Source: Bacteroidetes bacterium RIFCSPLOWO2_12_FULL_37_12 (GTDB lineage Bacteria > Bacteroidota > Bacteroidia > 2-12-FULL-37-12). From it: a stretch of 35,894 nucleotides of DNA. The notes under the pieces were generated by a model that saw only the letters and a list, made by a program, of their open reading frames with translations, was not told the DNA's origin and made no database searches. Positions 8,954-31,700 of this stretch are shown here, piece after piece; the first letter of the stretch is position 1, and each line of letters starts with the position of its first letter. A program made the translations under genes and the position numbers. Where the stretch lies: the NCBI GenBank assembly GCA_001769655.1, contig MEPC01000011.1:1-35894 (forward strand), read 5' to 3'.

Positions 8954-8974
8954 CAAATATATATATTATCTTTG
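8954..8974. promoter_or_regulatory. Back-to-back candidate -7 boxes
   Basis: Minus strand TATATTTG (8961-8954) points to the OmpA-like lipoprotein gene and plus strand TATCTTTG (8967-8974) points to the thioredoxin-fold gene, only five bases apart. Neither has a clear -33 TTTG at the expected spacing. Confidence 0.4.
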
Positions 8975-8979
8975 TATCT

Positions 8980-9073
8980 TTAATGAAAATGGGTATTAGG
9001 TATAAGGGTATAGGGTATAGGGTTGTAAATTATGTATTTCGCTTATACCTTTATACCTTTATACCCCTATACC
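8980..9073 (+). repeat. GGTATA-type imperfect palindrome, copy A
   Basis: The left arm (about 8991-9022) is a run of GGTATA/GGGTATA units and the right arm (about 9043-9073) is the reverse complement pattern TTATACC/CTATACC, separated by about 20 bases. It can fold into a long hairpin. The outer left end, TTAATGAAAAT (8980-8990), recurs in inverted orientation at the end of the second copy near 16217. It lies between a -7 box and the thioredoxin-fold start codon. Confidence 0.75.
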
Positions 9074-9109
9074 TTTTTTTACTTTCACATATTAAAACTT
9101 ATTATCAAT

Positions 9110-9601
9110 ATGAATCTGAAATATATAACTAAATTAGTGTTCGTTTTATTATTTCTTCTCATTATAAAAAGTAATGTAAAGGAATATGCTGTTTATGCTC
9201 AAACAGGATTTCCATGGAAAACCTGGGAAGAAGCAATAAAGGTAAGCCAGGAAACCGGAAAAATCATTATGATTGAATTTTATACGGACTGGTGCGGATG
9301 GTGCCGGAAGATGGAAAATGAAACTTTCACCGATGAAAAAGTCCTTACCCGTTTAAATGCCGGTTATATACCTGTTCGTGTAAATCCTGAAAAAAATGGT
9401 GAATTTATAATGGACGGAACTAAACTCAATACACGCACATTCACAGATAAAATAACTCACGGCCGCCTTCGTGGTTACCCAATGCTTGTTTTTTATTCTG
9501 CCAAAACCAAAAGCTATTCTTTCCAATCGGGCTATATTTCCGGAAAAGATTTTTATAATTTATTAGACCAGGTAAGAGAGAAATTTAGTGTGGGAAAATA
9601 A
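9110..9601 (+). CDS. Exported thioredoxin-fold protein (CGWC)
   Basis: Periplasmic thiol-disulfide protein of 163 residues. ATG 9110 begins a clear signal peptide (MNLKYITKLVFVLLFLLIIK, cleavage near YAQ); the frame is open further upstream to 9032, but those codons fall in the GGTATA repeat and encode nonsense such as FIPLYPYTFF. The thioredoxin-like domain covers about 38-160, with redox motif DWCGWCRKME and a cis-proline-type GYPMLVF. The region W.TWEEAIKVSQETGKIIMI matches the thioredoxin_7/DUF255-like group, often involved in reducing or protecting exported proteins. It is followed by the coiled-coil/TonB cluster but has an intervening -7 box, so it is probably separate from it. The exact partner is unknown. 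Confidence 0.88.
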   Translation: MNLKYITKLVFVLLFLLIIKSNVKEYAVYAQTGFPWKTWEEAIKVSQETGKIIMIEFYTDWCGWCRKMENETFTDEKVLTRLNAGYIPVRVNPEKNGEFIMDGTKLNTRTFTDKITHGRLRGYPMLVFYSAKTKSYSFQSGYISGKDFYNLLDQVREKFSVGK

Positions 9602-9661: not shown

Positions 9662-10048
9662 ATGAGCGTATCTGATCTTACAGAAGCATTCCGTAAAGCA
9701 ATGATTGAAGCCCTTGTTCCGGAATTAAAGGACTTGAAGGTCGAAATGAACGAGCGTTTCATTGACTTGAAAAAGGAAATGAACGAGCGTTTCGCAAAAG
9801 TGGACGAGCGTTTCGAAAAAATGGACGAGCGTTTCGCAAAAATGGACGAACGTTTCGCAAAACTTAATGAAAGATTAGATTCTATCCAACAGCAAATGTT
9901 TGGATTTCAACAGCAAATGTTGGAATTTAAACAGCAAATGTTGGAATTTCAAAAGACACAGGAGAAAATTCTATCAAAAATTAATTATGAAGAAAGAATT
10001 GTTAAGTTGGAATCACTAGTAGAGCAGATATTAAGAAAAGCGGCTTAA
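9662..10048 (+). CDS. Heptad-repeat coiled-coil protein
   Basis: A 128-residue protein without signal peptide or membrane segment, so probably cytoplasmic. Residues about 24-75 are heptad repeats of the type MNERFxx/MDERFAK, and residues about 80-104 are three near-identical heptads QQQMLEF/KQQMLEF. Both blocks are visible in the DNA as 21-base tandem repeats, so the copy number may vary between strains. It should form a long parallel or antiparallel coiled-coil. Only two bases separate its stop from the TonB-receptor start, so the two are almost certainly co-transcribed and may be translationally coupled. I do not recognise a function. Similar short heptad proteins are common in bacteria and are usually uncharacterised. 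Confidence 0.8.
   Translation: MSVSDLTEAFRKAMIEALVPELKDLKVEMNERFIDLKKEMNERFAKVDERFEKMDERFAKMDERFAKLNERLDSIQQQMFGFQQQMLEFKQQMLEFQKTQEKILSKINYEERIVKLESLVEQILRKAA
9745..9861 (+). repeat. 21-base tandem repeats inside the coiled-coil gene
   Basis: Units close to GACGAGCGTTTCGCAAAAATG recur about five times, each encoding one heptad. A second run of three 21-base CAGCAAATGTTGGAATTTCAA-like units lies at about 9890-9952. Confidence 0.75.
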
Positions 10049-16102: not shown

Positions 16103-16110
16103 TATATTTG
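16103..16110 (+). promoter_or_regulatory. Candidate -7 box for the biotinyl-domain gene
   Basis: Reads TATATTTG. A TTG lies 16 bases upstream at 16084-16086, slightly short of consensus. Its -33 region overlaps that of the divergent aminopeptidase promoter, and the GGTATA palindrome follows it. Confidence 0.45.
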
Positions 16111-16133: not shown

Positions 16134-16217
16134 AGGTATAGGGGTATAGGGGTATAAGGAGAGCTTCAATTTTTCCTTATACCCTATACCTCTATACCAT
16201 ATACCTATTTTCATTAA
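16134..16217 (-). repeat. GGTATA-type imperfect palindrome, copy B
   Basis: The left arm is AGGTATAGGGGTATAGGGG-like (16134-16161) and the right arm is CCTTATACCCTATACCTC-like (about 16176-16206), with a short loop between. The outer right end, ATTTTCATTAA (16207-16217), is the reverse complement of the outer left end of copy A. It lies between a -7 box and the start codon of the biotinyl-domain gene, so it should be in the mRNA leader. Confidence 0.75.
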
Positions 16218-16223
16218 TGCAAT

Positions 16224-16751
16224 ATGATTCAATTAATAAATAAAAGTACGGGTAAAACCTTCTCCGTGGATTTTTCAGGCAATCAGGTAATTGTAAATGG
16301 GAAATCTTATAATTTCGACCTTAAGGAAATCAGTAAGAACAAAATGCATTTATTATTAAATCAGGATTCTCATAATGCTGAATTGCTTGAGATAGATTCA
16401 AATGAAAAACTTCTAAAACTTAAATTTAAAGGGGAAACAATTTCTTTTGGAATAAAAGATGACTTGGATTTATTATTGGAAAAAATAAGCATAGACAAGA
16501 ATGTTAAAAATGATAAACTAATAATAAAAGCACCAATTCCGGGCTTGATTGTTAATGTATTATGCAAAAAAGGGGAAGACATTAAAAAAGGGGATACTAT
16601 ATTGGTACTGGAGGCAATGAAGATGGAAAATACTATCAAATCTCCATATCAGGGATTGGTTAAAGAACTATATATTAAAAAAGGAGATAAGGTGGAGAAG
16701 GGGCAGGTGATGGTGGAGATGGGGGGAGGTACGTTATCTAACAAACAGTGA
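16224..16751 (+). CDS. Biotinyl-domain protein (biotin carboxyl carrier)
   Basis: Carries biotin and shuttles carboxyl groups in an acyl-CoA carboxylase, pyruvate carboxylase or decarboxylase complex. In the 175-residue product, residues about 100-170 are a biotinyl/lipoyl barrel with the biotin motif EAMKMENT (Lys133 accepts biotin), flanked by IKAPIPGLIVNVLCKKGEDI and SPYQGLVKELYIKKGDKVEK. Residues 1-90 resemble the N-terminal half found in stand-alone carriers of Bacteroidota acyl-CoA carboxylases. No biotin carboxylase or carboxyltransferase gene lies within the window, so its partner enzymes are encoded elsewhere. The next gene starts 54 bases later but is functionally unrelated. A lipoyl role is unlikely because of the Met-Lys-Met motif. 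Confidence 0.9.
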   Translation: MIQLINKSTGKTFSVDFSGNQVIVNGKSYNFDLKEISKNKMHLLLNQDSHNAELLEIDSNEKLLKLKFKGETISFGIKDDLDLLLEKISIDKNVKNDKLIIKAPIPGLIVNVLCKKGEDIKKGDTILVLEAMKMENTIKSPYQGLVKELYIKKGDKVEKGQVMVEMGGGTLSNKQ

Positions 16752-29023: not shown

Positions 29024-31591
29024 TTAGTCCGTAATAAATACTTTTCTATTTATATTATGCCCAGGAATTTTAAGAAAATAAATACCCGGATTCAAATAAT
29101 TTACATTAATTCGTTTTTGTTGGCTATTACCCATTGCATTGTCCAATACTAAAGAGCCATTAATAGTAAAAATTTGTATTCTTCCACCAATTGCCTTTGG
29201 ATTGTAAATCAGAATTTGTTTATTATAAGCATTAAAACAAAAAGTACCGAAAAAATTATCACCCGGCTGGTTGAACTCTAAAATATTATCAATTAAATCA
29301 ATTACCAGGGTTTCCTGATATGATTTTTGACAGGATGAATCAGATGAATAAATGTTCAACGTTACCTGATAAGAACCGATAGAATCATACGTGTGTACAG
29401 GGTTTATTTCTATTCCTGTTGTACTATCTCCAAAGGACCAAAAATAACTCCCTATATTTCCAGTACTGGTATTTGTAAAACTCACTGTACCCGTTAATGA
29501 ATCAATGACATAAGTAAACCCGGCTACAATATCACAGATATTAACAGTGACATTATATGAAGTATCCCCTACACATGTACTATCGTTGGAATATACAACC
29601 AGGTTTACGGAATAAGTTCCACTGGATATATAGGTGTGATCAGGTGGATTTGACAATACTGAAGTCAACCCATCTCCAAAATCCCATTTGTAATTTTCCA
29701 GGTAATTTCCTGATGATAGATTTGTAAATGATACGACCCCTGTTTCTGGTGTGACTGTGAAGCTAAAATCAGAAACATTATTGCAAACTGGAGGAATGTA
29801 AGGAGTTTCAAATTTTAATATAGAAAGGTTTTCTCCCGCAGTATAAGCAACGTTTTTTGATTTGAAAGACAAAGATGTCAGAAAATAGTTCGTATTAATT
29901 TTTTCAATATTCCAAGTGTTTCCTCCATCTTCAGTTTTGAGAATTAGCCCTCCACTTCCTGCTACCAATCCTACATTATTATCAATAAACTGTATAGCTC
30001 TTAAATCATTGGTTACGTTACTCTGGAGTGTGGTCCAGGTGGATCCATTATTGGTAGTTTTAAGTATTACCCCCCCTTGGCCAACAGCAAAACCTGTACT
30101 TACGGTAGTAAAAAATGTAGAATATAAATTATTTGATGTTCCACTATTGAGTGATGCCCATGTTGAACCTGCATTGGTAGTTTTTAAAATTATTCCACTT
30201 TCACCAACCACAAAACCATTGTTAACATCAAAAAAATATACACCAAGCAACGGGTCAAATAAACCGCTATTCTGGTTTGACCATGTGTTTCCACCGTTTA
30301 TAGTTTTAATTATTGTACCCATATCACCAACAGCAAATCCTTTATTAGCATCAATAAAATGCATACCAAATAAATACGAACTCGTTCCACTTGATTTGGA
30401 AACCCAACTGGAACCACTATCTGTAGTTTTAATAACTTTTCCGGATTCACCTACTGCAACTCCAGTTGTTGAGCTTGTAAATGAAATACCGTATAACGCG
30501 GAATTAGTGCCACTATTCAAATTTGTCCATTGTTTTCCACCATCAGTGCTTTTCATAATAATACCACTATCCCCGGCTACATACCCATTCAGTGTATCAA
30601 GAAATGATAAGGAATTCAAATACCCCGTTGTTCCCTTTGCTATAACAGACCATGTGTTGCCACCATCAGAAGTATTAAGAATGGTTCCATAAAATCCTGC
30701 AATGGTTCCATCGATTGAATTATTAAAAGAAATTGAGCGTAATGTGTTTGCAACTCCGCTTGTAACAAGATTCCATGTGATGCCACCATCTGTTGTTTTA
30801 ATAATAGTTCCATTTTGCCCGGTCGCAAAACCGATAGTGTTGTCTAAAAAATTTAATGCATATAAATAATTATTGGTTGAACTATTTATTGAGGACCATG
30901 TTGTGCCTCCATCAGTGGTTGACAGTATTACTCCGGCTTCACCTACGGCAAATCCATTGGATGCATTTAAAAATTTAACTGCATATAAAAAAGTTGTTAT
31001 CCCACTGGTTTGCGCCGACCAATTCATTCCTCCATCCACAGTTTTAATAATTGCACCATTCTGTCCAACTCCATATCCTATATCAGAGCTTGGAAAATCC
31101 ATAGAAAAAATATAGTCGATCACATTACTGTTTTGCTTAATCCAGGTTGTACCACCATCCGCAGTTTTTAAAATTGTTCCTGTTTTACCGGAAGCAATTC
31201 CATTTTCAGAATCCCAAAAATAAACATCCGAAAGATTCTTAATAGACCCGGAGTTCAGAGAATCCCAATTTTCTCCCCCATCGACAGTTTTCAAAATTGT
31301 TCCGTTTGAACCAACTACAAATCCTGTATCAATACCAATAAAATAAATGGACCACAATATTTCTGTAGTTCCACTGTTTTGTATTTGCCAGTTATTCCCA
31401 GAATCATTGGTTTTCATAATCATTCCGCTTTCACCAACGGCATATCCGATATTGCTGTCTATATACTTTATAGAATACAATGAGTTACCCTGAGGGATCG
31501 GATTTTGCCAATGCCATTGGGCATGTATAAGCATTGGAATGTATAAAGCCAATGTCAACATTAGGTATGTTTTTTTTGTTATGTTTATCAT
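29024..31591 (-). CDS. T9SS cargo: 14-repeat beta-propeller, two PKD domains
   Basis: Secreted surface protein of 855 residues. I start it at ATG 31591 (MINITKKTYLMLTLALYIPM, cleavage after IHAQ); the longer frame from 31651 adds a polar, non-signal stretch. Residues about 30-605 are fourteen consecutive repeats of 41 residues (the last partial) with the pattern F...NGFAVGxxGTILKTxDGGxTW, the BNR/Ycf48-like propeller blade. Two PKD domains follow at about 615-700 and 700-775 (YKWDFGDG, YFWSFGDS). A Por sorting domain closes the protein (KQILIYNPKAIGGRIQIFTI, YLNPGIYFLKIPG). It is the first gene of a likely two-gene unit with the spermidine-synthase-like gene. Adhesion or glycan binding is plausible but not shown. 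Confidence 0.9.
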   Translation of the reverse strand: MINITKKTYLMLTLALYIPMLIHAQWHWQNPIPQGNSLYSIKYIDSNIGYAVGESGMIMKTNDSGNNWQIQNSGTTEILWSIYFIGIDTGFVVGSNGTILKTVDGGENWDSLNSGSIKNLSDVYFWDSENGIASGKTGTILKTADGGTTWIKQNSNVIDYIFSMDFPSSDIGYGVGQNGAIIKTVDGGMNWSAQTSGITTFLYAVKFLNASNGFAVGEAGVILSTTDGGTTWSSINSSTNNYLYALNFLDNTIGFATGQNGTIIKTTDGGITWNLVTSGVANTLRSISFNNSIDGTIAGFYGTILNTSDGGNTWSVIAKGTTGYLNSLSFLDTLNGYVAGDSGIIMKSTDGGKQWTNLNSGTNSALYGISFTSSTTGVAVGESGKVIKTTDSGSSWVSKSSGTSSYLFGMHFIDANKGFAVGDMGTIIKTINGGNTWSNQNSGLFDPLLGVYFFDVNNGFVVGESGIILKTTNAGSTWASLNSGTSNNLYSTFFTTVSTGFAVGQGGVILKTTNNGSTWTTLQSNVTNDLRAIQFIDNNVGLVAGSGGLILKTEDGGNTWNIEKINTNYFLTSLSFKSKNVAYTAGENLSILKFETPYIPPVCNNVSDFSFTVTPETGVVSFTNLSSGNYLENYKWDFGDGLTSVLSNPPDHTYISSGTYSVNLVVYSNDSTCVGDTSYNVTVNICDIVAGFTYVIDSLTGTVSFTNTSTGNIGSYFWSFGDSTTGIEINPVHTYDSIGSYQVTLNIYSSDSSCQKSYQETLVIDLIDNILEFNQPGDNFFGTFCFNAYNKQILIYNPKAIGGRIQIFTINGSLVLDNAMGNSQQKRINVNYLNPGIYFLKIPGHNINRKVFITD

Positions 31592-31700
31592 GTTAAAATA
31601 ATTATTATATTTAAGTTGTAAACGATTAATGTTTGTTTGGAAAATGGTCACAGAAGTATAGAATTAATAAACATTTAAAACATTTGTCACAAAAGGGTAA

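Follow-up and report, generated by a model that had tools for sequence, protein, structure and literature searches.

A dispersed family of GGTATA-word palindromes with shared ends between the genes of a Bacteroidota genome

Introduction

The closest described architecture to the repeat family reported here is that of BrickBuilt, a MITE of Porphyromonas gingivalis with 19 copies, built of 23-nt direct repeats and bearing a terminal inverted repeat (TIR), GAGACCTTTGCA, that matches the IS5 family (PMC4596501). Closest in genomic position are the tagged REPs, which measure 20-40 bp and carry either GTAG or CGTC as their tag; the GTAG REPs also have a RAYT flanked by the same repeats (PMC3733652). 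Closest in unit length are two arrays of heptamers. The TAACTGA arrays, known from Beggiatoaceae, Cyanobacteria and some Bacteroidetes, are direct and almost never inverted, and in the best-studied genome most of them lie a few nucleotides upstream of start codons in one orientation (PMC4679880); the G-rich GGGNATC heptamers of Xanthomonas and Nostoc were described as direct arrays without a partner arm or ends (PMC4692102).

The DNA analysed here, referred to as the window, is a stretch of 35,894 nucleotides on contig 11 of Bacteroidetes bacterium RIFCSPLOWO2_12_FULL_37_12, whose genome was searched as a whole (3.94 Mb, 43 contigs). A palindrome of GGTATA units in this window, copy A, had been predicted to be a small dispersed element in an mRNA leader. 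We report that it belongs to a genuine dispersed repeat whose novelty lies in a combination of known features, the unit sequence, ends and inverted-array design being found in none of the four systems above as they are described.

Results

Copies A and B in the window

The window holds two copies, A and B, with the following neighbouring features.

8967-8974, forward strand: putative TAnnTTTG promoter-like box TATCTTTG, read from the sequence, upstream of copy A
8976-8993, forward strand: left end of copy A, ATCTTTAATGAAAATGGG
8999-9022, forward strand: G-rich arm of copy A, three GGTATA units
9042-9073, forward strand: C-rich arm of copy A, four TATACC units, then a T run
9081-9120, forward strand: possible decayed right end of copy A, uncertain, reaching into the start codon of the thioredoxin-like gene
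9110-9601, forward strand: exported thioredoxin-fold gene downstream of copy A (Pfam Thioredox_DsbH 1.4e-13, Thioredoxin_7 7.3e-12)
16103-16110, forward strand: putative TAnnTTTG promoter-like box TATATTTG, read from the sequence, upstream of copy B
16134-16217, reverse strand: copy B, three GGTATA and four TATACC units
16224-16751, forward strand: Biotin/lipoyl-carrier-domain gene, 6 nt downstream of copy B (Pfam Biotin_lipoyl 1.3e-18)

Copy A extends over 8980-9080, with its palindrome of GGTATA units at 8999-9073 followed by T7; the covariance model of the family matches 8986-9079, and the agreement with the full-length consensus is 89% over 98 nt. The box, the palindrome and the sequence TTAATGAAAAT (8980-8990, within the left end) were all found where the original prediction had placed them, 5′ of the exported thioredoxin-fold gene, which starts at 9110. 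As the end of the palindrome, TTAATGAAAAT is present in A but is a minority variant, the left end of the family being CTAAAAGAAAATGGG. When positions 9081-9120 were aligned with the right-end consensus, 94 of 2000 shuffles aligned equally well; with p only about 0.05, a decayed right end overlapping the start codon is not claimed.

The top inverted-repeat partner of copy A in the whole window is copy B, in agreement with the predicted inverted recurrence: 8980-9022 and 16175-16217 are 86% complementary over 43 nt. The left end of B, ATTTTCATTAA, lies at 16207-16217, which gives B the opposite orientation to A. Folding of both copies is beyond chance: A reaches -37.3 kcal/mol (z -4.5) and B -45.9 kcal/mol (z -7.2), none of 200 dinucleotide shuffles being as good in either case, and both fold better on the coding strand. 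The distance from the start of the box (8967 and 16103, respectively) to the first GGTATA is 32 nt in both.

Repeats of other kinds occur inside coding sequences of the window. An ORF at 9662-10048 contains 21-nt in-frame tandem repeats (9731-9955), and its product is probably a coiled-coil protein, as judged from weak Pfam coiled-coil matches. Twelve tandem 123-bp repeats at 30035-31472, within a reverse-strand ORF (29024-31651), correspond to a 41-residue repeat protein.

Family size and spread

A DNA search of the host genome returned 91 matches at about 45 places. The pattern GGTATAN{0,5}GGTATA has 708 occurrences there, and its reversed control has 24. With a covariance model derived from 21 copies, at least 71 distinct palindromic loci were identified at E<=1e-3, a lower bound from 150 scored candidates. 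The many further palindromes have unrelated neighbours, and their ends are common to copies in both orientations, which bears out the proposal that the repeat is a small dispersed element and did not arise by chance; neither of the two outcomes named as refuting it, an absence of further copies and mismatched ends, was seen.

Among 395 genomes of the class, the host is an extreme outlier in word-pair count. The next highest counts are 61, 53, 32 and 32 (genomes G067, G095, G127 and G007), most other genomes have fewer than 15, and the pair is rare in nearly all of the 394. The moderately rich genomes contain similar palindromes in which the G-rich arm likewise comes first. Searches of plasmids and phages gave no match, Rfam gave none at the gathering threshold anywhere in the window, and the exact left-end pattern, searched across a contig database, gave one unrelated Clostridiales match without a palindrome. 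No description of GGTATA words or of these ends was found in the open-access literature, where absence is weak evidence.

Anatomy of the repeat

The arms are inverted arrays of tandem GGTATA(N1-2) words of 7-8 nt, separated mostly by spacers of one or two bases (GG, G, AG, AA or A). A longer, ~140 bp form is retained in about 11 copies, with the ends TATACTAAAAG...GCAAACTCATTCAGCATGAGTATA. This full form starts with the left-end consensus of the family, (TATA)CTAAAAGAAAATGGG, and continues with a G-rich GGTATA(N1-2) arm, a short AT-rich loop, a TATACC arm and (A)TTTTTACTAATTTCCGCAAACTCATTCAGCATGAG(TATA). The right end of the family, CGCAAACTCATTCAGCATGAG(TATA), is a small hairpin, and the ends of the full-length element can also be written TATACT...GCTGAATGAGTTTGC and GCAAACTCATTCAGC...AGTATA. 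Full-length copies from unrelated loci agree with the consensus at 91-98% identity, and unrelated loci have unique end sequences of 15-40 nt in common. In the host genome the TIR is only about 6 bp long (TATACT/AGTATA). Most full-length copies have TATA on both sides, some have mismatched flanks, and one (C39:24148-24291) has TTTA on both sides; these flanks are ambiguous and may represent either a duplicated or a retained target.

Position statistics were derived from 775 kb in 65 segments, partly chosen around matches, with 603 genes (85% coding) from our own caller rather than a full annotation. Defined as three or more words, 93 clusters were found there. All 73 two-armed clusters have the G-rich arm first, with no case of the C-rich arm first; 20 are single-armed, and some arrays reach about 20 units. 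The lengths of the two arms within one copy are uncorrelated (-0.19). Arm similarity is 0.71 within a copy and 0.75 between copies; without any excess likeness within copies, and with uncorrelated lengths, compensatory change is not holding the hairpin in register.

Genomic position and transcripts

All 93 clusters are intergenic, despite the coding density of these segments. Copies in the gaps between tandem genes stand a median of 5 nt behind the upstream stop codon, whereas the median distance to the next start is 48 nt (p 0.0004). For 33 of the 41 tandem palindromes the distance from the upstream stop is between -15 and +16 nt; negative distances mean that the stop codon is inside the array, since one frame of the word reads GTA TAG or GTA TAA. 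Convergent copies are within 20 nt of a stop in nine cases out of nine. The family-wide check of positions relative to start codons, suggested by the original prediction, shows most copies directly behind the stop codon of the upstream gene.

TAnnTTTG is a promoter motif of Bacteroidota. It was found at -10 to -120 of 28% of the called genes, compared with 4.6% of random 80-mers. Within 80 nt upstream of an element, it was found in none of 42 tandem copies and on 7 of 22 divergent sides, including those of A and B. The predicted leader is therefore plausible locally, for A and B, which lie between a box and a start codon, but false for the family. A and B are two of the minority of copies in 5′ leaders, and this position is probably incidental.

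The sense strand folds better in 17 of 41 tandem copies, showing no overall bias, and the strand of the nearer gene folds better in 8 of 11 divergent copies (p 0.17, not significant). Where the next gene is less than 35 nt away, the sense strand gives the weaker hairpin in 15 of 16 copies, versus 9 of 25 with a more distant gene (Fisher 0.0003); the 35-nt threshold was picked after viewing the data, so this link to folding is post hoc. Selection against strong sense hairpins within operons is possibly behind the pattern. T runs of four or more follow 38 of 90 hairpin sides, against a background of 15%, and occur on the sense side in 13 of 41 and on the antisense side in 16 of 41 copies; frequent but without a sense-side excess, they make a terminator function possible only. 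Given strong hairpins on both strands, local effects on transcription or mRNA are possible.

Related elements in the host and in other genomes

The right-end motif also delimits small palindromic, inverted-repeat elements in genomes from two further families of the class, where it forms a longer TIR than the 6 bp of the host. In G007, from another family, it takes the form CAAAATCATTCAGCATCAGTATA and delimits more than 15 palindromic, MITE-like elements; in G373, from a third family, it is the TIR of a ~75 bp element, TATACTGAGCGAATGAGTTTGC...GCAAACTCATTCAGCCGGAGTATA. Other intergenic palindromes of the host genome are made of the words GGATTACAC, GTAATACGATT, GAACAATA, TTGGATRT, ACATATA, CACAGAGG and CGCAAAGG. 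A second family of the host is clearly a MITE: its 12-bp TIR, GTTACTRTTCAG, occurs at 45 exact places (none in the control), with several pairs about 150 bp apart that enclose, where read, a GGATTACAC palindrome. MITE-like families of the host other than the GGTATA repeats, for example with the TIR GTTACTGTTCAG, have palindromic cores of other repeated words.

L177-L196, e.g. L179 around 1100-1225: MITE-like elements of G007 with ends TATACTGAYG...CATCAGTATA
G000:C2:55779-55940, C19:15524-15681, C39:1960-2120, C2:11048-11208 and C1:42737-42883: copies of the GTTACTRTTCAG MITE
G000:C24:402612-402795, C24:194273-194403 and C20:136961-137078: further intergenic palindromes with the related ends GTTACTACTCAG and TTACTATTCA and the word cores ACACTAAACATA, CACATAGG and CACAGAGG

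Two loci (L031, C38:85494-88838; L032, C20:126033-129377) contain RAYT-like Y1_Tnp genes flanked by the palindromes AACCCCGTAGGGGTT; CCCTGAAAGGGC / ACAGGGC..GCCCTGT and are apparently ordinary REP-RAYT systems. An iterated palindrome of the 11-nt word GTAATACGATT lies near L031.

Discussion

Comparison with described repeats

Like BrickBuilt, the GGTATA family occurs in Bacteroidota as a small, non-coding, intergenic repeat in which a leader and a tail with short inverted ends flank an internal tandem array, and many of its copies have degraded ends; unlike BrickBuilt, its units measure 7-8 nt in inverted arrays, its ends are different, and both the 23-nt bricks and the BrickBuilt TIR are absent (PMC4596501). 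With the REPs it shares intergenic palindromes, most of them positioned downstream of a gene in tandem or convergent gaps, but it has the ends AAAATGGG and CCATTTTT, no GTAG/CGTC tag and a median palindrome length of 82 nt, and, unlike for GTAG REPs, a RAYT gene adjoins the element in 0 of 33 loci (PMC3733652). The TAACTGA arrays resemble it in their 7-nt words, intergenic tandem organization, variable word number, lineage-specific expansion and a function that is not known, whereas the GGTATA clusters are two-armed in 73 of 93 cases and sit behind stop codons rather than just before starts (PMC4679880). The GGGNATC arrays are likewise G-rich, gene-avoiding, intergenic tandem 7-nt words, and the G3x4 quadruplex pattern is matched by 27 of 63 GGTATA palindromes; over half, however, are without four G3 tracts, and the family has a palindromic partner arm and element ends (PMC4692102).

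Origin of the family

We consider it probable that the family, of which A and B are old copies, is a non-autonomous, MITE-like repeat with an iterated-word core, most likely an element whose palindromic core is prone to slippage. This reading is favoured mainly because the combination of transposon ends with an iterated-word palindrome recurs. As in MITEs, the element is short (about 140 bp), non-coding and present in many copies at unrelated loci, at least 71 here. A putative transposase acting in trans would copy the elements via their ends, and replication slippage would then lengthen or shorten each arm independently. Insertions hitting genes or promoters would be lost, and the survivors would be those immediately after stop codons, in convergent gaps and away from promoters. 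The uncorrelated arm lengths and the arrays of about 20 units fit slippage. Counting against a MITE are the ~6-bp TIR and the ambiguous target duplication, together with the lack of a demonstrable empty site, the relatives being of class level only and the sample of paralogous loci yielding none. The transposase search, which covered two families in six genomes, points the same way: Y1_Tnp genes were found without these ends, and DDE_3 was absent, leading us to reject IS630-type mobilisation (TA target). The roughly 20 single-arm arrays suggest that, for some of the family, spread or growth may not have involved transposition.

Growth of the whole family in this local manner, with 7-8 nt words amplified by slippage and quasi-palindromes arising through template switching, would parallel the heptamer arrays of other bacteria. 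It would account for the long single-arm arrays, for the freely variable word number with independent arm lengths and for the recurrence of the same architecture in several unrelated words of the host genome. We nevertheless regard it as rather unlikely, given the unique ends common to unrelated loci and the constant precedence of the G-rich arm (73 to 0); recent template switching also predicts arms that are more alike within a copy, unlike the values obtained (0.71 against 0.75). The placement directly behind stop codons, the frequent T runs and the post hoc weakness of sense hairpins ahead of close genes would suit co-opted bidirectional transcription terminators or 3′-end stabilisers. Such a role seems very improbable: T runs are no commoner on the sense than on the antisense side, many copies separate genes too close to tolerate termination, and purifying selection on insertions would leave the same stop-codon placement.

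A cis-regulatory RNA leader, serving the mRNAs of A, B and other genes as an attenuator or as a hairpin bound by a protein, appears very improbable. The position of A and B between box and start codon, with better folding on the coding strand, and the 8 of 11 divergent copies speak for it, but the latter ratio is not significant, tandem copies show neither the upstream box nor a sense-strand preference, Rfam has no match in the window, and the downstream genes are unrelated. The arms do not covary either, which argues against a selected RNA switch. Hardly any credence can be given to a REP family mobilised by RAYT, the Y1 tyrosine transposase, although the palindromes are intergenic and downstream of genes and RAYT genes are present. 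This origin is contradicted by the Y1_Tnp loci, none of which (0 of 33, in six genomes) has the end motif beside the gene; at about 1 kb, only one weak motif match (L219) and one GGTATA word pair (L225) were seen, and the inspected loci of the host genome and G007 are flanked by other palindromes. The missing tag and a full form of about 140 bp, against 20-40 for REPs, also argue against it.

Significance

Returning to the MITE-like reading, we tentatively raise the possibility, itself rather doubtful, that iterated-word palindromes constitute a distinct, undescribed class of mobile repeats in the phylum. Such a class would combine few ends (TATACT..., GTTACTRTTCAG, GTTACTACTCAG) with many cores of 7-11 nt words, the cores being rebuilt within lineages and the ends common across families. 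A repeat architecture of hairpins formed by inverted 7-8 nt word arrays is unusual. As one genome is flooded with these repeats and nearly all of the 394 others hold few, they can be used to date or trace a recent expansion, and the dozens of strong intergenic hairpins that they place behind stop codons may be mistaken for terminators or riboswitches.
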